A program made the position numbers and the translations under genes. Below, one piece after another: positions 46,300-58,046 of a stretch of DNA of 64,000 nucleotides. The stretch's first letter is position 1; each line of letters starts with the position of its first letter. Origin of the DNA: Sporomusaceae bacterium. Lineage in GTDB: Bacteria; Bacillota; Negativicutes; UBA1444. The notes under the pieces were generated by a model. That model was not told where the DNA came from. It made no database searches and saw only the letters and a list, made by a program, of their open reading frames with translations. The stretch is taken from assembly GCA_018434355.1 (NCBI GenBank), contig JAHDPL010000014.1, forward strand, positions 1 through 64,000, in the 5' to 3' direction.

Positions 46300-46408
46300 G
46301 ATTTAATGTAGTTGAATTGTAACATGGCAGTCCACTGATGTCAATAGACGCTTTTATAGTTTATATAAACTTGATTGCTTTGTCAATATGCGATTGATTG
46401 GAGGCCGC

Positions 46409-47542
46409 ATGTCAGTCCGCAAACGTGGAAAATACTATCACATCGTCCTTGAAAAAGGCCGAGATGCCGACGGCAAAAGAATACAGGAATGGATGGCTAC
46501 CGAGTTCACGCGCAAGGCTGATGCCCAGGCGAAAGAGGAAGAACTGAAATTTGCGCTGCGCAAAGGAACGTATATCAAGCCGACAAAGAAAACCGTCGGT
46601 GAATTCCTGATTGAGTGGCTGGAAGATCGGAAATCGGAAATCAAAGCCTCCACCTGGGAACACTACGACTGGCTCCGGCGCCTTCACGTGGACCCGGTGA
46701 TCGGGCAGGTCGAACTCATGAGACTTTCGCCGGCAAACTTGTTGGACGTATATCGAAAAGCGAAGGAAATCCCATCGCCGCCCAAAACGCCCCAGAAAGG
46801 CCGTGGAGCTGTCCGGAAGAAAGCGGTATCCCCAACTACCATAAACGCCATTCACCGCTTCCTGCACAAAGCCCTGGGCGATGCATCACGGTCCTATCAG
46901 CTGACCTATGTAAATGTTGCTGAAAAGGTCGACCCTCCCAAGAAAGCAAAGTATGAACCGAAAATATATGAGGTTGACCAGATCCAGAAAATGCTAGAGC
47001 TGATGGCGGGGACCAATATCGAGATCCCGCTTGTTTATTGCGTCAAATGCGGGATGCGCAGCGAGGAAGCCCGGCTGCTCACATGGGACGATATCGTCGG
47101 CAACACCGCCATTATCCGCGATGCAAAGACGCCGTCCGGGGAACGGGTCGTTGAACTCCCTCCGACAGTAATCAAGCTCAACGACACCGCAAAGGAACAA
47201 ATCGAAAAATGGAAAGTCGACAACAAGGATCTCTGGAAAGAAAACAACCTGATCTGGTGCAAGGAAGACGGCACACCGTATAATCGGTTCTATTTCATCC
47301 ATCGCCTGCAGGCCCTTTTAAAACAGCACGAAATGCCCCGAATTCGTGTGCACGATCTACGGCACATGTATGTATCCCTCATGCTTGCCTCCGGGGCCAG
47401 TCCTGTCGACCTGGCGGCCCAGGTTGGGCATTCCAGTGTGTCGTTCATGCTCAAGGTCTACGCCCACTCGATGCCAACCAATCGAGCGGCGCTGGCCAAA
47501 CTTACCGACAAAATATTGGGCAAGAAAAAGCCGAAAAAATAG
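46409..47542 (+). CDS. tyrosine-type phage integrase
   Basis: ATG 46409 after GGAGG. 377 residues. The N-terminal AP2-like arm-binding domain (VRKRGKYYHIVLEKGRDADGKRIQ) and SAM-like core domain (TVGEFLIEWLEDRKSEIKASTWEHYDWLRRLHVDPVIG) precede the catalytic domain. Catalytic residues appear in CGMRSEEA (Arg), HDLRH (His-Arg), VGHSS (His) and KVYAH (Tyr). It inserts the phage, probably into the tRNA-Arg 3' end 80 bases downstream. Confidence 0.9.
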   Translation: MSVRKRGKYYHIVLEKGRDADGKRIQEWMATEFTRKADAQAKEEELKFALRKGTYIKPTKKTVGEFLIEWLEDRKSEIKASTWEHYDWLRRLHVDPVIGQVELMRLSPANLLDVYRKAKEIPSPPKTPQKGRGAVRKKAVSPTTINAIHRFLHKALGDASRSYQLTYVNVAEKVDPPKKAKYEPKIYEVDQIQKMLELMAGTNIEIPLVYCVKCGMRSEEARLLTWDDIVGNTAIIRDAKTPSGERVVELPPTVIKLNDTAKEQIEKWKVDNKDLWKENNLIWCKEDGTPYNRFYFIHRLQALLKQHEMPRIRVHDLRHMYVSLMLASGASPVDLAAQVGHSSVSFMLKVYAHSMPTNRAALAKLTDKILGKKKPKK

Positions 47543-47624: not shown

Positions 47625-47700
47625 TGGCGTCCCAGGAGGGAGTCGAACCCCCGACCAACGGATTAGAAGTCCGTTGCTCTATCCCCTGAGCTACTGGGAC
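47625..47700 (-). tRNA. tRNA-Arg (anticodon TCT)
   Basis: 76 bases with encoded CCA. Acceptor GTCCCAG/CTGGGAC, D-arm TAGCTCAGGGGATAGAGC, anticodon loop CTTCTAA, T-arm GGGGGTTCGACTCCC. Its 3' end faces the phage integrase and is the likely attachment site, with host gene function kept intact. Confidence 0.95.
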
Positions 47701-47727
47701 ACTGGTCTGCCCATTCTGACAAAAAAA

Positions 47728-47801
47728 TGGAGCGGGTGAAGGGAATCGAACCCTCGTAATCAGCTTGGAAGGCTGACACTCTACCATTGAGTTACACCCG
47801 C
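47728..47801 (-). tRNA. tRNA-Gly (anticodon TCC)
   Basis: 74 bases with encoded CCA; acceptor GCGGGTG/CACCCGC, anticodon loop CTTCCAA, T-arm with GGTTCGATTCC. Second in the leftward Pro-Gly-Arg cluster. Confidence 0.95.
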
Positions 47802-47809
47802 ATTTTGTA

Positions 47810-47886
47810 TGGTCGGAGCGGCAGGATTCGAACCTGCGACCCCCTGCTCCCAAGGCAGGTGCTCTACCAAGCTGAGCCACGCCCCG
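47810..47886 (-). tRNA. tRNA-Pro (anticodon TGG)
   Basis: 77 bases with encoded CCA; acceptor CGGGGCG ends against CGCTCCG with wobble pairs, anticodon loop CTTGGGA, T-arm GGTTCGAATCC. First of the cluster, just after its promoter. Confidence 0.95.
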
Positions 47887-49289: not shown

Positions 49290-49775
49290 TCAGGGTAGGC
49301 TAATCAGCTGGAAAAGAAGTTGGTGCTGGCTTGCGTTCAGTTCAAGCAGTCCGACTGTGCGCTTATTACCGCGACGCGGTTGCGAAACGCTACCCGGGTT
49401 GAAAAATTGAATCCCGTCCTGCGACCAGGTCGCCGCCTGATGGGTATGTCCGTATACGACGATATCGGCTTCATAACGCAGCGCCCAGTCTGCCAGATCA
49501 TGCGTGTCCTGCTTTACACCATGCCTGTGCCCGTGGGTCAGCCAGAGTTGAAAACCCGCCAGTTCAAGAAATTCATCCGGTTTTGCTTCATTACGGCCAT
49601 CGCAGTTTCCCGCCACCATCAGTACCGGCGCGGTGGTCAGCGTCGCCAAAAACATTGCATCCCGGCAAAAATCACCGGTGTGCAACCACAAATCGACCGC
49701 GCCGGTCAGAGAAACCGCCTGGTTGATCGAACGGATATCGCCGTGGCTATCGCCGAGAACGCCAATTCGCAGCAT
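49290..49775 (-). CDS. YfcE/MJ0936-type metallophosphodiesterase
   Basis: 161 residues with GDSHGD (near 9), HTGDFCRD (near 32), VAGNCDG (near 57), THGHRHG (near 79) and YGHTHQA (near 109): the calcineurin-like metal ligands in order. It hydrolyses phosphodiesters; the substrate is unknown. Last gene of the operon behind rph and rdgB, a common arrangement. Confidence 0.88.
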   Translation of the reverse strand: MLRIGVLGDSHGDIRSINQAVSLTGAVDLWLHTGDFCRDAMFLATLTTAPVLMVAGNCDGRNEAKPDEFLELAGFQLWLTHGHRHGVKQDTHDLADWALRYEADIVVYGHTHQAATWSQDGIQFFNPGSVSQPRRGNKRTVGLLELNASQHQLLFQLISLP

Positions 49776-49784
49776 TGTCCAGCT

Positions 49785-50384
49785 CTACTTTGGCTGCAGT
49801 TGCATTTGCAACTTCTGTTTCAATACTTTCAGCGCATTGCCGCGGTGACTGATCGCGTTTTTTTCCTGCACCGTCATTTCCGCCAACGTCTTCTGCTGGG
49901 CAGGCATCCAAAACAGTGGATCATAACCAAACCCGCCATCTCCTTTAGGCTCGGTCAAGATAATCCCCTCGCAGGTTCCTTCTGCGAGTAGCAGTGAACC
50001 ATCGGGCCCCGCCAAAGCCAATACGCTGCGAAACCGGGCGGTACGTTTCTCCTCTGGCACATCCTGCAGAGCCAGCAACAGTTTTTGGTTGTTTGTGGCG
50101 TCCGTTGCACCTTCGCCGGAGTAACGGGCTGAGTACACGCCGGGCGCGCCATCCAGGGCATCCACTTCCAGCCCGGAGTCATCGGCCAGGCAATATTCGC
50201 CGGTATGCTGGGCATAATAGCGCGCTTTCAAGATTGCATTCTCGCTAAATGTCACGCCGGTTTCTTCGACATCCGCCAGTCCTTCGTCAGGAATACCACT
50301 GACCTCAAACGGCAATTCGGCCAACGCCTGCCGGATTTCACGCACTTTGCCCGCATTGCGCGTGCCTGCGACAATCTTGTTCAT
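49785..50384 (-). CDS. XTP/dITP diphosphatase (RdgB/HAM1)
   Basis: 199 residues: KIVAGTRNAGKVREI, ENAILKARYYAQHTGEYCLADDSGLEVDALDGAPGVYSARYSG, GGFGYDPLFW and ISHRGNAL are diagnostic. It removes non-canonical purine nucleotides. Start three bases after the rph stop. Confidence 0.95.
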   Translation of the reverse strand: MNKIVAGTRNAGKVREIRQALAELPFEVSGIPDEGLADVEETGVTFSENAILKARYYAQHTGEYCLADDSGLEVDALDGAPGVYSARYSGEGATDATNNQKLLLALQDVPEEKRTARFRSVLALAGPDGSLLLAEGTCEGIILTEPKGDGGFGYDPLFWMPAQQKTLAEMTVQEKNAISHRGNALKVLKQKLQMQLQPK

Positions 50385-50387
50385 CGG

Positions 50388-51125
50388 CTATTTTCCCACC
50401 CTAGCCGCCAGATCGCCCAGCACGTCGCGCTGCATTTGCATTAGTCGGCGAATTCCCGCTTCGCCAAGCTGCAGCATGGCATCCATTTCCTGGCGGCTGA
50501 ACGGCGCCTGCTCGCCGGTCCCCTGGACCTCGACAAAGTTTCCGCCGCCGGTCATGACCAGATTCATATCGACAATTGCCGACGAATCCTCTACATAGCA
50601 AAGGTCCAGCGCCGGGCCTTCCTTTAATATGCCGACACTCACCGCCGCCAAAAAGTCACGCACCGGGAAAGTGGTCGTCTCGGCAAAGCCGATTCGGTTT
50701 AAGGCATCCACCAATGCGACAAATGCACCGGTGATCGAGGCGGTGCGCGTGCCGCCGTCAGCCTGGATTACATCGCAGTCCAACCAGATTGTGCGCTCGC
50801 CGAGCGCTTTCAAATCGACCACGCTACGTAGGGAGCGCCCGATTAGGCGCTGAATTTCATGGGTTCTGCCGGTCAGCTTGCCTTTGGCCGACTCGCGCTG
50901 GTTGCGGGTACCGGTTGAGCGGGGTAATAATGAATATTCGGCTGTCACCCAACCGCTGCCGCTGCCTTTGAGAAACGGCGGCACTTTTTCTTCCACGCTG
51001 GCGCTGCACAGCACCCGGGTATCACCCACTTCGATCAGTACCGAACCCTCGGCAAACTTCAGATAGTCCCGTTGCATTTTCAGCGGGCGCAGTTCGTCCG
51101 CCGCCCGTCCATCAACTCTTTGCAT
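50388..51125 (-). CDS. rph: ribonuclease PH
   Basis: 245 residues from ATG 51125 after AAGGAG; longer in-frame starts are not needed. [53 protein letters not shown]-like region and [20 protein letters not shown] match the family. It trims tRNA 3' ends with phosphate. It is followed by rdgB, a frequent pairing. Confidence 0.95.
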
Positions 51126-51150: not shown

Positions 51151-52479
51151 TTATATTCTGCCGCAGCTATCTTCTTTTTTATCCTGCAACACAAAATATT
51201 GGTGATCGCGTTGCCGCTTTGCTTTGATCAAGGCGTCTTTGCCACGTTCACGACAGACCAGGCAGGACTCCTGTTGAAGCACCACTGCGAAGGCAGATTT
51301 ATCGCCAGTGCGGCTGCCACTCGATTCCGTCGATATCGCCATATAACCGGGACAGTGCGGGCAGTAATGGATCGATTCCCGCTGATGCTCCATGATCTGG
51401 CTGTCATCATAGTAGATGTCCCGTTCACGTTTCCAAGAGTTGCCGGCTGCCGCCAGCGCCGAGCGGCGCAGTTGCTCGCGGTTCGCCCATTTGCCTTGCC
51501 AGTCGGCTATCAGTTTGCCAATGTAAGCCGTCGTGGCCGCCGATTGCACCGGCGCCCGGTCCAGATCGGGTTCCAGTACCCGACGATAGTCCAGTCCTGC
51601 CATCGCCAAGATAATCCCGACATTCACATACGGCAGTGCATCTTCGATGGAGTAACCGCCCTCCAGCACCGCGACATCGGCACGCAGTTTTTCGGCCAGG
51701 CGGGCATAGCCCTGCGCCGTCACTGCCATATTGGCCAGCGGATCGCTGTAGTGATTATCCTGTCCGGCGGAATTTACAATCAAATCCGGCTGAAAATCTG
51801 CCAGCATCGGCAGCACCAGTTCATCAAGCACGGCGTGTAAACCCTGGTCGGTTGTGCCCGGTGGCAGCGGGATATTGACCGTAGACATTAAAGCTGCCGG
51901 GCTACCGGCTTCATTGGGAAAACCGCTGCCCGGATATAATGTTCGCCCGTCCTGATGAAACGAAATGAACAAGGTATCCGGATCATGGTAATAAATATCC
52001 TGGGTTCCATCGCCATGATGCACATCGGTATCGACGATCGCCACCCGGCGCAAACCATACTTCCGCCTCAGCGATTCAATCATCACCGCTTCGATGTTGA
52101 CGGTGCAAAATCCCCGGGTCCCATGTACCACCCGCATCGCATGGTGGCCGGGCGGACGCACCAACGCAAAAGCCTTGGCCGTTTCACCACGCAGCACCGA
52201 TTCCGCCGCTGTGATCGCTCCACCGGCCGACACCCGGTGTGCATCGGTAATAAGCGATGCAATGTCAGGCACGCCGATGTGAACCCGTTCCAGATCGGCA
52301 ATTGATGCCAGGCGCGGCTTATATTCGCGAATCTGCGGCAAATCAAGCAAGCCTTCTTCCAACACTTGATCGCGGGTAAACAGCAGCCGCTCTTCCCGTT
52401 CGGGATGCGTCGGCGATATCGCCCAGTCAAACGCCGGAAAAAACACCAGTCCCAGTGGTTTTGCTTTTGCATTGCTCAC
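51151..52479 (-). CDS. histone deacetylase-like zinc amidohydrolase with extra C-terminal cysteine domain
   Basis: 442 residues. Catalytic features of class II/acetoin-type HDACs are present: RPPGHHAM near 110, [15 protein letters not shown] near 150 (metal ligands Asp, His), [13 protein letters not shown] near 241 and LEGGYS near 275. After about 370 the protein has an unusual tail with [10 protein letters not shown] and [10 protein letters not shown], a likely zinc site. It overlaps the HyuA-like gene by four bases. It probably removes an acyl group from a small molecule or protein; the substrate is unknown. Confidence 0.8.
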
Positions 52480-54155
52480 GTCCCTGCACCTCCCGTTGCT
52501 GCCGCATCGATCAAGCCGGCGATAATCCCCGGCTTGATCTGTACGCCGACATGAACAATCTTGCCTACGGTACTGAATCCGCGCACCAAATTGAATTCTT
52601 CGCCAAACGTGGTTTCGATTTCATCCGCTGTTATCCCGGCTGCCGCGGCCATTTCCTGCAAATGCAGCGCCGCCTGTTTAACGGCCTGCTGGATCGAATA
52701 CCGTCGGTCATTCAGCGGCAGGCGCAAGCTGAGCTCAGGCACGGTATATTCTCCAGCCGCCGTATCAGCCCGTAGGCTGATATGCAGAGTCGGACGGGCC
52801 AGTGCCGCGCCGAGGGCATTGGCGACCATCGCCAAAGGCGGCACTTGCCATGCGAGTTTAAATTTTTCGGCTATTAGCGGCGTCAGGCCGGCCGCACCGC
52901 CGCCCACACCGATCAGCAATTCTGGTCGCAGCAATTCCGGCCGGACGATGTCTTCCACTTTATATACCGGCGCCGCCGCTTCGATCGCCAGCATTTCGCG
53001 CACTGCATTCGCCACGATTTCCGCCGCCTGGTCAATGATGACCTGCGCCGTTTCCTGTAAAGATTTCCCGGGAAATACTAGTCGCTGTATCGCCGCCTCG
53101 GCCAGTCCCCGGTCGCCAAAATCTGACAAACCGGCTACGATCAGTGCATCGGTCACTGTAGGTTCCGCGCCGCCGAGCGCCATCGCCGAACCCTTGCGCT
53201 CTGGTCCGATCAAAAGCCGATCGCCATCCCGGCGCAGCCAGCTGTCGCCGCCGAGCCCGATCGAATGCAGTCGGAAGGTGCGGACCGCCGTCAGATAGCC
53301 GTTGATGGCCGCCCCCTTGGCATCCATGAGCGGTGCGCCGCCTTTCCAGAGGGCAATATCGGTCGTGGTTCCGCCGATGTCGAGCGACACAGCAGGTTTC
53401 GCCGGCGGGCACAGCCCCATGACGCCCAGCACGCTGGCCGCCGGCCCGGTAAAGATCGACTCCACCGGCAGTTCACGCGCTTTCGCCAGCGGCAAAGTCC
53501 CACCGTCGGCTTTTAAAATCAGAATCGGAGCCTGAACACCGCGCTCCGCCAGTGCAGCGGCCGCCGCATCGGCAAAATCTTGAAACCGCTGCCAGACCGC
53601 CGCATTGTAATAGGCCGAATTGGTCCGGCGAATAAAGTTCAAATTGCCGGAAACCGTAGAGCCACAGGCGATATGTAGCGGCTGCATTGCGGCGGCAAGA
53701 ATGCCGGCAACCTTTTGCTCCTGGGCTGGATTGCGCACGGCAAATTTGCCGCTGACCGCAAACAGTTTTACGCCAGCCATTTTTTTGCAAGTCTGCTTCA
53801 CTTCATCTAAAGCTATTTCCTGTCGCTCCCGCCCGCGGTGATCGACATAGCCGGACAGCACCAACGGTTCCGCCGCCAATCGCCCCCGCCAGTCAGCGCC
53901 CGGCCCAGGCATGATAAACAACCCCACCGGGTCCAGCTTCCCTTGGACGATCGCATTGGTCACCAAAGTGGTCGATAACGCCACCCGCTCGATGCACTGC
54001 GTCTCGATACCCTGCAGGATTTCGTCCAGCGCAGTCAGGATGCTCGCCAGCACCTGGCCGTGCTCGGATGCGACCTTGATTTGCCGAATCACTTTGCCGG
54101 CATCGAGCAGTACCGCATCGGTATACGTGCCGCCAACATCAATTCCGACTAACAT
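52476..54155 (-). CDS. hydantoinase/oxoprolinase (HyuA-like) family protein
   Basis: 559 residues of the actin-fold ATPase family: VGIDVGGTYTDAVLLDAGKV, VALSTTLVTNAIVQGK, VSLDIGGTTTDIALW and GGGAAGLTPLIAEKF. The usual partner subunit HyuB is absent. It sits between a dehydratase activase, with which it shares 17 bases of overlap, and a deacetylase. ATP-dependent activation of an amide or thioester is possible. Confidence 0.8.
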   Translation of the reverse strand: MLVGIDVGGTYTDAVLLDAGKVIRQIKVASEHGQVLASILTALDEILQGIETQCIERVALSTTLVTNAIVQGKLDPVGLFIMPGPGADWRGRLAAEPLVLSGYVDHRGRERQEIALDEVKQTCKKMAGVKLFAVSGKFAVRNPAQEQKVAGILAAAMQPLHIACGSTVSGNLNFIRRTNSAYYNAAVWQRFQDFADAAAAALAERGVQAPILILKADGGTLPLAKARELPVESIFTGPAASVLGVMGLCPPAKPAVSLDIGGTTTDIALWKGGAPLMDAKGAAINGYLTAVRTFRLHSIGLGGDSWLRRDGDRLLIGPERKGSAMALGGAEPTVTDALIVAGLSDFGDRGLAEAAIQRLVFPGKSLQETAQVIIDQAAEIVANAVREMLAIEAAAPVYKVEDIVRPELLRPELLIGVGGGAAGLTPLIAEKFKLAWQVPPLAMVANALGAALARPTLHISLRADTAAGEYTVPELSLRLPLNDRRYSIQQAVKQAALHLQEMAAAAGITADEIETTFGEEFNLVRGFSTVGKIVHVGVQIKPGIIAGLIDAAATGGAGT

Positions 54156-54927
54156 TTTGGTCGTTTCCTTTCATCGCCTGAATCGCACAACCGATCGCGC
54201 CGTTGATTTGCGGCTGCGGCGGCACCACGACCTCGCTACCGGTTTCCTCGCGAACCCAGTGGGCCACGGCCGGTCCCAGCGCCACCCCGCCGGTAAATAC
54301 CACGGTCTTGCTCGCCAGAGCCAGCAGCATCGGCTTGATGCGGCGGAAAATTGAGTAGTTGACCCCGGCGGCCAGCTCCGCCACCGGCACTCCTTCCACG
54401 ATCCGACCGATCAATTCCGACTCGCCGAAAATCGCACAAGTGGCTGACAAATCAATTGGATTCAGATAGTGTTGGCTCATTTCATCGAGTGATATCCCCA
54501 GCACTGTCGCCATGTTTTCCAGATAACGCCCGGTACTGGCTGCACATTTGTCGTTAAGTTGAAAATCATCCATGCGACCGCCGCGCACCCGGATCACCTT
54601 GCTATCCTGCCCGCCCAGGTCTAGTAGCGTAAAATCAGTCAGTCCGGTCTGCCATAGCGCGCCAATCGTATGCGCCTTCAATTCGGAAATGATTTCCGCA
54701 CCGACGATGTTCAATGAATTTCGCCCATAACCGGTCACCGTCAATACCGAAGGCAACTGTGAAATCAGCGCGTCAAAATTGACGGCAAACCCATCGGCGG
54801 TATGCGCGCCGCACTGTTTATAAAAATGAGCGGTTTCCACCACTTTTTGTTCCGTAATCGCCGTTCCGTCAAATACGACAATCTTGACAGCCCGACTGCC
54901 GAGATCCATCCCGCAAAACACCGGCAT
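54139..54927 (-). CDS. 2-hydroxyacyl-CoA dehydratase activase (BadF/HgdC family)
   Basis: 262 residues. FCGMDLGSRAVKIVVFDG and LLDLGGQDSKVIRV are the actin-fold phosphate-binding loops. The cysteines of CAASTGRYLENMA and SATCAIFGESE hold the [4Fe-4S] cluster between two subunits. It drives low-potential electron transfer with ATP hydrolysis into the dehydratase-like partner encoded three bases upstream. Confidence 0.9.
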   Translation of the reverse strand: MPVFCGMDLGSRAVKIVVFDGTAITEQKVVETAHFYKQCGAHTADGFAVNFDALISQLPSVLTVTGYGRNSLNIVGAEIISELKAHTIGALWQTGLTDFTLLDLGGQDSKVIRVRGGRMDDFQLNDKCAASTGRYLENMATVLGISLDEMSQHYLNPIDLSATCAIFGESELIGRIVEGVPVAELAAGVNYSIFRRIKPMLLALASKTVVFTGGVALGPAVAHWVREETGSEVVVPPQPQINGAIGCAIQAMKGNDQNVSRN

Positions 54928-54930
54928 CCC

Positions 54931-55908
54931 TCACTTCAACATTTCGATAAACCCGTCGAGCCGCAGACGTGTCCGGGCATCCAGACAGCCCGGCTTGTCG
55001 CCTTCGATCGTCAGGATCGGCAAATTTAGCTTTTTGCGCACGATCATATCTTCGATCTGCCGGTAGCAAAAACTCTGCACATAATGAATCACGCCGTCAA
55101 GCTGGCGACGCGCCGCTTCGGCCAGAATGTCTTCAATCCGGTAGAAAATTCCGTGCGGATAGGTATAGCGGCGATACTGTTCAATGATGTCCGCTTCGTC
55201 ATACGGCATCGCAAACTGACGCTGCACTTCATTAAATACGACCCGCGCCCCCATCGACTCGACGTGATCATACAGGTCGGGGAAAATCGGCGGCACTCCA
55301 ATATAACCCAGACGCAATTTTTGTTTGCGCGGCGGCGCAACGATCGCAGTCGCCAGAAACTCATCCAGTTCCCGTTCAAACTTCTCCACGTCACTGTTGA
55401 AATCACTGCAGCAGATTTGCCACAGATGATTGTCTGTGCCACCGACCCTGTTTTCAGCCCAGGTCAGCCGGTCCACCTCGGCGACTTTGCGCCGGATCCG
55501 GTCCAGCTCCGCCTTGACTTCCAGCACCCGGTCCCAGCTGGCCTCCAGCGCACTGGCCATCTTTTGCATCTGCAGCCGCAGCATGTCGACATCGCGGTCA
55601 AACGGATAGGCAAAAGGAATGATTTCTACACCGGCCATCTGCCAGGTTTCCATCAGGGCATGGGTGTTGCTGCAATCACCCTGGGTCACCGCCACCACCG
55701 CATCGACGCAGTCGGTATCGACCACCGTCGAATACAGCCCCTTGATCCAGCCGCAGATATTGCGGGGATAGCCTGCGTCTTCGGCCGCTTCCACCCGCCG
55801 CACCGGGTCTGCTCCGGTAATAAATATGTTATTCAAATCCACCGGCACATGGCCGCCAGCCAGGATAATCTCGACCGGCACCGTGGTCGTCATGCCAATC
55901 CGCGCCAA
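54931..55908 (-). CDS. 2-hydroxyacyl-CoA dehydratase D-component-like / double-cubane-type protein
   Basis: About 325 residues. The start is uncertain: TTG 55908 lies seven bases after AAGGAG, an in-frame GTG is closer and ATG 55893 farther. AGGHVPVDLNNIF, YPRNICGWIKGLYS, VAVTQGDCSNTHAL and HYVQSFCYRQIEDM give the cysteines expected for cluster binding. Only one subunit is encoded, unlike HgdAB; a single subunit plus activase fits double-cubane cluster proteins (YjiM/YjiL type). First gene of the operon. Confidence 0.8.
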   Translation of the reverse strand: MARIGMTTTVPVEIILAGGHVPVDLNNIFITGADPVRRVEAAEDAGYPRNICGWIKGLYSTVVDTDCVDAVVAVTQGDCSNTHALMETWQMAGVEIIPFAYPFDRDVDMLRLQMQKMASALEASWDRVLEVKAELDRIRRKVAEVDRLTWAENRVGGTDNHLWQICCSDFNSDVEKFERELDEFLATAIVAPPRKQKLRLGYIGVPPIFPDLYDHVESMGARVVFNEVQRQFAMPYDEADIIEQYRRYTYPHGIFYRIEDILAEAARRQLDGVIHYVQSFCYRQIEDMIVRKKLNLPILTIEGDKPGCLDARTRLRLDGFIEMLK

Positions 55909-55966
55909 AGGTTCCACTCCTTACTGCAATTCTGTTTCCATCATACTATGGAGCAGGGCGAAAAAA

Positions 55967-55986
55967 AAGAGGGGCTAGCCCCTCTT
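55967..55986 (-). terminator. terminator after the CofE-like gene
   Basis: AAGAGGGGCTAGCCCCTCTT is a perfect palindrome that contains the stop codon; on the minus strand it is followed by eight Ts. It separates the CofE-like transcript from the dehydratase operon. A TATGAT box at 55940-55945 may belong to the promoter of that operon. Confidence 0.85.
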
Positions 55987-56646
55987 GGCGGCAGCAGCCG
56001 CATAGTTCTTGATGATTACGATCGGCGTCTGTTGGTTGGCATTGCCAAACGGATTGTGAATCAGAATCCGGGAAAGTTCGGCAGGTTGCAATCCTTCGGT
56101 CACGCCGAGCACCGCCGCCCGTTTCAGGTCATTGACATCGGCCACCGCCGCACCGTAACAACCGAGCCGCGCTTTGATCGCTTCCGCCACTTTTACCGGA
56201 TCTTTGGGCCCAAATACCAGCATCTTGTCAAACGGCGGCATCGTCCCTGTCACATCGTCGATCAGCGCCGCCTGTTCACCGGCTAGGCGATAGAACACGC
56301 CCGATTTGCCGAACACCTTGGCAATGCCGCCGACAATGAACGCAAACAGCACCCGCAGCGCACCGCCTTCGTCAATCGTCGCCTGCATGCCGCAAGCGCT
56401 GGAGCAGCTGGAATCGCGATGGACAAAGCGAGCCAGCACATGGGCCAGAATACTGGGGCTCATCTCTTCCGGCCGCCGGTAGCGCCCCTGGGTGATCGCC
56501 ACCACGCTTTCCGCCACTGAAACCACATCATCCGGCCCCATATCCGGGCCGGCATATTTTTCAATCACATCGACAATATTGTCCCGTTTGGTGACAATAT
56601 GGGTTTTTACCGGAACCAGTTCCACTCTTGCTTCTTCCACTGCCAT
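55975..56646 (-). CDS. CofE-like (F420-0:L-glutamate ligase family) protein
   Basis: 223 residues from ATG 56646 (TAGGAGGC upstream). VKTHIVTKRDNIVDVIEKYAGPDMGPDDVVSVAESVVAITQGR matches the N-terminus of the F420_ligase family; GDxSxx-like RDSSCSSACGMQAT and the IHNPFGNANQQTPIVII end fit too. No other F420 gene is visible, and Firmicutes generally lack F420, so the true amide-forming substrate is unknown. Confidence 0.75.
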   Translation of the reverse strand: MAVEEARVELVPVKTHIVTKRDNIVDVIEKYAGPDMGPDDVVSVAESVVAITQGRYRRPEEMSPSILAHVLARFVHRDSSCSSACGMQATIDEGGALRVLFAFIVGGIAKVFGKSGVFYRLAGEQAALIDDVTGTMPPFDKMLVFGPKDPVKVAEAIKARLGCYGAAVADVNDLKRAAVLGVTEGLQPAELSRILIHNPFGNANQQTPIVIIKNYAAAAAKRG

Positions 56647-56651
56647 GCCTC

Positions 56652-57197
56652 CTACTTCTGCCCTCTGCCATTTTGCATCGCGGCGTGAAACTCTTCCATC
56701 GGCAGTTCCAGCATCGTCTTGGACAAATACCACTCGGCGCGGGCCACAACTTGATAAACGATATTCAACGGCAGATCAACAATCTGGTCCATTGCCTGGC
56801 GAATATCGCCGCCCTCACTATGGAATCGCAACTTGATTACCGCTATGTCATGCTCCAGCTTTTCATTGGGGAACAGTGTCGCTTCCCAATAACCATCACT
56901 GCGGGGACACGAGGCCACCGTCACTTTGGTCGTCAACTCCGCCGCCGAAAACTGCTCTTTCGGGATCCAAGGACGGACAAACACATCCATCAGCGTCCCC
57001 TGCTGCGAACCGCGATTACGAAAGGGAACGTTGAACGTAAACACCATTTCATCGGCGGTTTCCTTTTCCAACTCTAATCGCGAGCGATTGGCCGTATCAA
57101 AGACGAAATCCGCATCACCCTGTCGCCAGATATACAAAGCCAGCGCCAGGAACACCAGTCCCAGAAACGCCAAAAAATAACCTGCGTAAACCAACAC
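56652..57197 (-). CDS. membrane-anchored hypothetical protein
   Basis: 181 residues from GTG 57197. One N-terminal helix (LVYAGYFLAFLGLVFLALALYIW) is followed by a soluble beta-rich domain (FVFDTANRSRLELEKETADEMVFTFNVPFRNRGSQQGTLMDVFVRP). No family recognised. It starts on the thioesterase stop and ends five bases before the CofE-like start, so the three genes are one transcript. Confidence 0.6.
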   Translation of the reverse strand: MLVYAGYFLAFLGLVFLALALYIWRQGDADFVFDTANRSRLELEKETADEMVFTFNVPFRNRGSQQGTLMDVFVRPWIPKEQFSAAELTTKVTVASCPRSDGYWEATLFPNEKLEHDIAVIKLRFHSEGGDIRQAMDQIVDLPLNIVYQVVARAEWYLSKTMLELPMEEFHAAMQNGRGQK

Positions 57198-57623: not shown

Positions 57624-58046
57624 TCAACCTTTCATTCCGGTGATAATTTCTGCAATCCTGGCGCTGGCATCACGAATGTTAGCCACCAGCGGTCGATTCT
57701 CCATTCCGACAATCTCAAAATGACCCTGGTTTACCGGCACCAGGACTTTGCGAGCTGCGGAAGCCGCCACTGCTTCAGCCATAGCGGAAGTTATTTCGCC
57801 CATCAACGCATTGGGAATAACGATACCGATTGGTCCGGCGATTATATCGGCGCTACGAGACATCACTTTTATCGCATTTTCACCAGTTGCACCACGTGAA
57901 GCGCCTGCCTTGACCATCGCCTGTGTCGCCCAGGCATTAGCCCCCACGCAGATTACTTCGACCCCGGCGGCAACCTGTCCGGACAACTGCGATACCAACT
58001 GGGCGCCGATTCCGCCACCCATGCCGTCAATGACCAACACCAGCAT
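57624..58046 (-). CDS. DUF3842 family protein
   Basis: 140 residues: LVLVIDGMGGGIGAQLV at the start is a Rossmann-like nucleotide-binding loop, then VICVGANAWATQAMVKAGASRGATGENAI and GPIGIVIPNALMGEIT. Family of unknown function common in anaerobic Firmicutes. RBS AAGGGGGAAC precedes the ATG. Confidence 0.85.
   Translation of the reverse strand: MLVLVIDGMGGGIGAQLVSQLSGQVAAGVEVICVGANAWATQAMVKAGASRGATGENAIKVMSRSADIIAGPIGIVIPNALMGEITSAMAEAVAASAARKVLVPVNQGHFEIVGMENRPLVANIRDASARIAEIITGMKG

Follow-up and report, generated by a model that had tools for sequence, protein, structure and literature searches.

HydB is the usual partner of HyuA-type ATPases, and HDACs, which hydrolyse amides, are in bacteria usually regarded as stand-alone deacetylases. 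The HydA-family enzymes described so far are encoded as A-then-B gene pairs, phosphorylate amide carbonyls and act on small-molecule substrates (PMC5214803), and a survey of bacterial deacylases mentions no hydantoinase-type partner (PMC11532494). In the benzoyl-coenzyme A (CoA) reductase BzdNO, three cysteines hold the [4Fe-4S]-OH2 site of BzdO and six cysteine thiolates hold the double cubane [8Fe-9S] cluster of BzdN (PMC11971306). Here we examine a locus of Sporomusaceae bacterium (GCA_018434355.1, contig JAHDPL010000014.1; the window analysed is the whole stretch from position 1 to 64,000) in which four open reading frames on the minus strand, read from 55908 to 51151, encode a dehydratase-like protein, its activase, a short HyuA/HydA-like ATPase and an HDAC-like zinc hydrolase. 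An earlier note, made from the sequence of the window, had located the four genes there and suggested that together they form a reductive pathway, driven by ATP, in which a single substrate is activated and deacylated. The four-gene set is unusual, as that note said, but it is two things, and the more interesting one is the ATPase-HDAC pair. The locus almost certainly represents two independent, ancient two-gene modules, dehydratase-activase and ATPase-HDAC, which adjoin each other within a single transcription unit in Negativicutes.

Two separable gene pairs

We searched 250 Negativicutes genomes with three of the proteins and then compared the positions of the matches. The ATPase was found in 109 genomes and the HDAC-like protein in 110, with both present in 109; the single HDAC-only genome is a fragmented assembly. 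In 108 of the 109 genomes with both, the two genes are adjacent on the same strand. The dehydratase-like gene was found in 39 of the 250 genomes, directly upstream of activase-ATPase-HDAC in 33 of them. The six others comprise three cases of small contigs, contig ends or fragmented assemblies (G022, G070, G090) and three genomes (G006, G013, G025) with a dehydratase gene and no ATPase or HDAC detected. A further 75 genomes carry ATPase-HDAC without the dehydratase, and in these an F420-ligase-like gene or a gene for a 181-amino acid protein usually lies just before the ATPase gene. In a second survey, of 299 further genomes across the phylum (Bacillota), every one of the 115 genomes with both has the ATPase and HDAC genes next to each other, which makes 223 of 224 for the two surveys combined. 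The dehydratase-like gene was present in 54 of these 299 genomes, 36 of them also with the ATPase, and was never less than 20 kb from the ATPase gene. The fully conserved unit is thus the ATPase-HDAC pair.

Each pair also has usual surroundings of its own. Many clostridia have ATPase-HDAC flanked by the DNA-repair genes mutS and mutL, as part of a run that reads miaB-mutS-ATPase-HDAC-mutL-methyltransferase-miaA-hfq (gene names read from the sequences, not by family search), and outside Negativicutes dehydratase-activase sits between murI and rph. In Negativicutes the murI...rph site is common to both pairs, with ATPase-HDAC placed between the F420-ligase-like gene and rph. Because the pairs occupy separate usual sites elsewhere and a shared site in this class, the four-gene order is best understood as a juxtaposition inside one class.

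The one-pathway reading of the earlier note draws on the overlapping genes, on a four-gene order that is the same in 33 Negativicutes genomes of several families, a conservation among relatives that bears the note out, and on the statistical co-occurrence of the two pairs (Fisher p 2e-9 in Negativicutes and 1e-5 in the phylum, kinship being ignored in both). But either pair readily occurs without the other: in Negativicutes, ATPase-HDAC stands without the dehydratase in 75 genomes and the dehydratase without ATPase or HDAC in three, and outside the class the pairs never lie within 20 kb of each other, although 36 genomes hold both. A pathway of all four proteins acting on one substrate is therefore very improbable, and the comparison guards against a false four-step pathway built on gene adjacency.

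Spread and linkage of the ATPase-HDAC pair

The ATPase-HDAC pair is also present in Desulfobacterota, spirochaetes, Betaproteobacteria and archaea. Named genomes with the pair include Phascolarctobacterium faecium, Veillonella infantium, Moorella mulderi, Desulfovirgula, Herminiimonas contaminans, Desulfoprunum, Pseudodesulfovibrio and Halorutilus salinus, and metagenome-assembled genomes with it include those of spirochaetes, Oxalobacter, Geoglobus and Methanosarcina, placements that may include misbinned contigs (e.g., L146, L149). Of 65 full-length ATPase loci that extended far enough downstream in a scan of named genomes, 63 had the HDAC gene next. The distance from ATPase stop to HDAC start was between -20 and +60 nucleotides in 130 of 135 loci, and exactly -4 in 38, in a count where some genomes were sampled twice and the start codon was chosen by a rule favouring closeness to the stop; such spacing speaks for translational coupling of the two genes. 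Separate trees of the ATPase and the HDAC-like protein (78 loci; the careful topology search of the HDAC tree was incomplete) recovered the same main groups with the same out-of-place members; in both, Methanosarcina falls among the Bacillota, and Betaproteobacteria stand next to Myxococcota/delta groups. As judged from the sequences, the two genes have been inherited and transferred together in bacteria and archaea alike. The haloarchaeal and Archaeoglobales forms are shorter, and their HDAC matches stop before the four-cysteine extension described below.

Adjacency through conserved gene order alone, with ATPase and HDAC as unrelated housekeeping genes, would fit the clostridial pair, which lies within the strongly conserved mutS-mutL block. 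It is highly improbable, given that the pair stays intact across phyla while all its neighbours change (the mutS-mutL block, the F420-ligase-like gene and rph, and varied genes elsewhere) and that the two trees match, apparent transfers included.

A constant third partner was also rejected, as the neighbours outside Bacillota vary (EpmA/GenX-like synthetase, RsmB, argininosuccinate synthase, MazG and others). In several Desulfobacterota loci (L129, L136, L147, L159, L112) a gene for an EpmA/GenX-like class II tRNA-synthetase-like protein directly follows ATPase-HDAC, with PF00152 confirmed for L129. No ATPase-HDAC fusion was found among the surveyed loci, an apparent 1696-amino acid fusion frame in L061 being a masked stretch of N. 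An in-frame TGA read as selenocysteine in the ATPase was rejected as well, with no internal stop in L036 and L037 and one stop in L035. In the literature, we found no description of the ATPase-HDAC pair in open-licence PMC papers.

The HyuA-like ATPase and the HDAC-like protein

Pfam and NCBIfam domain matches agree with the families that the earlier note had assigned to all four proteins. The ATPase carries PF05378 (HyuA N-terminal) and PF01968 (core), with intact phosphate-1 (GIDVGGTYTD) and phosphate-2 (DIGGTTTD) motifs whose residues are conserved in 127-132 of 132 sequences; Lys137 is invariant in the alignment. Its best NCBIfam model scored 89.6 against a cut-off of 1000, and its PDB matches are 6yra, 7hk5 and 5l9w. 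The ATPase had been described as standing alone, and indeed HydB (PF02538) was not found anywhere in this genome; it is absent beside the ATPase gene and from 28 of the 30 carrier genomes searched, this one included, with control genomes positive, so a HydB acting in trans was rejected. The segment matching the HydB-interface fingerprint R/KERiDsxG reads xGYIDHRG, without the ER, in an alignment not anchored to a HydB-bearing HydA. The closest relatives of the ATPase without an HDAC neighbour include HyuA-like proteins (L170, L172, L178) that have an N-terminal extension, in L170 confirmed as DUF1638, and an insertion near residue 330.

The HDAC-like protein matches PF00850 with 231.6 bits, and its catalytic residues (His112, His113, Asp150, Asp152, His154, Asp241 and Tyr276) are invariant in 124 of 124 sequences. 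It also has family-specific invariant motifs (FFPAFDW...) and a C-terminal CxxC...CxxC extension with its four cysteines kept in 120-121 of the 124. The structure model (pLDDT, the predicted local distance difference test, 88) has Kdac1 of A. baumannii and HDAH of Bordetella as its nearest matches. Relative to ApaH (acetylpolyamine amidohydrolases, cluster 4), the best fold matches are of HdaH type and ApaH stands lower in the sequence list, a placement made with no reference tree.

Possible function of the ATPase-HDAC pair

The ATP motifs and the HDAC catalytic residues are invariant, 28 of the 30 genomes searched lack HydB, HydA units phosphorylate amide carbonyls and HDACs hydrolyse amides. 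On these grounds we tentatively propose that the pair may be an ATP-dependent amidohydrolase of two subunits, with a zinc enzyme of the HDAC type taking the place of HydB, a reading that is plausible but short of probable. In this scheme the ATPase, like HydA in the HydAB enzymes, would phosphorylate an amide, lactam or imide of low reactivity at its carbonyl oxygen, and the HDAC-like zinc subunit would then hydrolyse the bond so activated, as the counterpart of HydB. With slightly more reserve still, this could be a previously undescribed and widespread class of ATP-dependent amidohydrolase, with an HDAC-fold subunit replacing HydB, that is conserved in lineages as distant as clostridia, sulfate reducers and archaea. 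If true, the HDAC fold would perform ATP-coupled amide hydrolysis, and the pair offers a defined two-gene target for a substrate search.

Several points weigh against this proposal. HDAC-family enzymes cleave amides without ATP, and coupling is thus not chemically required. The ATPase is ~130 amino acids shorter than HydA (559 vs ~690), and its closest unpaired relatives carry an internal insertion and lie among diverse genes, so that it might itself catalyse a different reaction. At two ATPase loci, L127 (Desulfonema magnum) and L155, no HDAC was detected nearby. A replacement role, as a third 5-oxoprolinase in place of PxpABC, was rejected: PxpA occurs in 13 of 36 carriers and 16 of 36 non-carriers, and this genome has both. 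The complex, its activity and its substrate are all predictions.

The HDAC-like protein could instead be an ordinary protein-lysine or small-molecule deacylase, with the ATPase regulating it, directing it to its targets or catalysing another step of the same deacylation route. Its closest solved structures are HdaH-type lysine deacylases (Kdac1, HDAH) that work free of ATP, its catalytic residues are intact, and the C-terminal CxxC...CxxC segment could bind a substrate or partner. A regulator, however, would be expected to be lost sometimes, yet 223 of the 224 genomes with both genes have them next to each other and the trees match, and the HydA-family proteins known so far work on small molecules (PMC5214803). 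We regard a plain deacylase as rather unlikely.

The dehydratase-like protein and its activase

The dehydratase-like protein matches PF06050 (HGD-D) with 128.6 bits (cut-off 28.4), and its AlphaFold2 model (predicted template-modelling score, pTM, 0.81) found as best PDB structures in Foldseek HadC (3o3m/3o3n, template-modelling (TM) score 0.77-0.79), BzdNO (8s02) and DCCP (6eno/7yyl). Its only invariant cysteines are Cys52, Cys79 and Cys281 (36 of 36 sequences), and an HGD-D fold with a three-cysteine [4Fe-4S] site places it in the HAD/BCR-I group. The double cubane that the earlier note had suggested looking for was rejected, as three cysteines are invariant rather than six and NF040772 scored 44.6 bits against a cut-off of 350; the three cysteines thus point to one [4Fe-4S] cluster. 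The activase matches PF01869 (115.7 bits) and PDB 1hux (E 2e-38), and with 168.4 bits it lies above the cut-off of 125.4 for TIGR00241, to which it belongs; its cluster cysteines Cys128 and Cys164, the two that this family has at the dimer interface, are kept in 55 of 55 sequences. The dehydratase-like protein is thus kin to dehydratases and reductases, encoded by one gene, and most likely has one [4Fe-4S] cluster per subunit. Such an enzyme, probably homodimeric, would receive low-potential electrons from the ATP-driven activase, and may, as is typical of the HAD/BCR-I superfamily, catalyse acyl-CoA reduction or dehydration. It stands as a question separate from that of the ATPase-HDAC pair.

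Among 20 loci outside Negativicutes, about half have the genes for GlmS, GlmL, GlmE and methylaspartate ammonia-lyase immediately before dehydratase-activase. Because the pair often follows glutamate mutase and methylaspartase genes in this way, the substrate might be a C5 dicarboxylate or the corresponding CoA ester, though this is doubtful. A role in the methylaspartate route (glutamate to methylaspartate to mesaconate and onward), for example on mesaconate, citramalate or their CoA esters, would also agree with GlmE lying 8-14 kb downstream of the locus in several Negativicutes. However, many genomes with the pair have no GlmE and several have GlmE but not the pair, and the shared murI...rph gene order could hold these neighbours together without a common function. 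The link is loosened further by the fact that no proper GlmE was found in this genome, and the idea that the dehydratase strictly depends on glutamate mutase was rejected, as the presence of GlmE does not track the dehydratase in Negativicutes. Taken together, work in the methylaspartate route appears unlikely, at perhaps one chance in a few.

Between the metallo-beta-lactamase gene and rph in glutamate mutase/dehydratase clusters (L180, L182, L187 and others), there is a gene for a conserved protein of ~320 amino acids with only a sub-threshold TsaE-like match.

Locus architecture and neighbouring genes

The tight packing of the four genes reported in the earlier note was seen again: dehydratase and activase genes are separated by 3 nucleotides, activase and ATPase genes overlap by 17 nucleotides, and ATPase and HDAC genes overlap by the 4 nucleotides GTGA. 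The dehydratase-like gene starts with TTG, an alternative GTG at 55917 being possible. The coordinates are given in Table 1.

Table 1. Genes and signals at the Sporomusaceae locus.
Feature	Position	Strand	Basis or remark
Dehydratase-like protein, HAD/BCR-I fold (HGD-D), 325 amino acids	54931..55908	-	PF06050; model; Cys conservation
ASKHA ATPase activase, acyl-CoA dehydratase activase family, 262 amino acids	54139..54927	-	TIGR00241; PDB 1hux
Short HyuA/HydA-like ASKHA ATPase without HydB partner, 559 amino acids	52476..54155	-	PF05378 + PF01968; alignment
HDAC-like Zn amidohydrolase with C-terminal CxxC...CxxC extension, 442 amino acids	51151..52479	-	PF00850
Intrinsic-terminator-like hairpin between F420-ligase-like and dehydratase genes	55967..55986	-	8-pair stem then TTTTTT; consensus scan only
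rph (RNase PH), next gene of the run	50388..51125	-	ATG at 51125, ~25 nucleotides past HDAC gene
rdgB	49785-50384	-	next after rph
yfcE-like gene	49290-49775	-	next after rdgB

Since the hairpin with its T tail ends the preceding F420-ligase-like gene, it is probably the 5' limit of the transcription unit, which the dehydratase gene would open; the 4HBT, 181-amino acid protein and F420-ligase-like genes lie upstream of it. The run continues into rph, rdgB and the yfcE-like gene, which are conserved downstream neighbours in Negativicutes, and the unit therefore probably does not end at 51151.

The F420-0:glutamate-ligase-like protein (55975-56733, minus strand) matches PF01996 with 36.9 bits, far under the CofE equivalog cut-offs, and its gene and that of the 181-amino acid protein, which has no Pfam family, are conserved beside ATPase-HDAC in most Negativicutes loci. 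A DUF3842 protein gene (57624-58046, minus strand) adjoins one for a YbgC/MenI-like thioesterase, in a block conserved upstream in several Negativicutes. On the other side, a tyrosine-type integrase gene (46388-47542, plus strand) ends beside tRNA-Arg, tRNA-Gly and tRNA-Pro (47625-47886), and the minus-strand SbcC/SbcD-like, RusA-like, DnaC-like and HNH genes to its left resemble one end of a prophage or integrative element.

Comparison with known systems

The dehydratase-like protein resembles HadBC and the class I benzoyl-CoA reductases (BzdNO) in its fold (TM 0.7-0.79), in three cluster cysteines like those of BzdO and HadB, and in its BcrAD-type activase, but it is encoded by one short gene (325 amino acids) rather than as two subunits of ~375-440 amino acids. 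With DCCP/DCCP-R it shares the layout of one dehydratase-like gene and one activase gene, and it differs in having three invariant cysteines instead of six and a score for NF040772 below the cut-off.

The HdaH-type zinc deacylases (Bordetella HDAH, A. baumannii Kdac1, K. pneumoniae HdaH, DmhA and PrpH) have in common with the HDAC-like protein the HDAC fold, the His-His dyad, the Asp/His/Asp zinc site and the catalytic Tyr, and they supply its best fold matches and some of its best sequence matches; unlike them, it has a near-obligate neighbour ATPase, family-specific motifs and the C-terminal four-cysteine extension. The ATPase in turn shares with the HydAB family (5-oxoprolinase, N-methylhydantoinase, caprolactamase and acetophenone carboxylase) the PF05378/PF01968 domains with ASKHA phosphate motifs and a two-gene, A-then-B layout. 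It differs from that family in lacking the HydA C-terminal region and, in its operon and most genomes searched, HydB, its partner being instead a zinc hydrolase of the HDAC fold.

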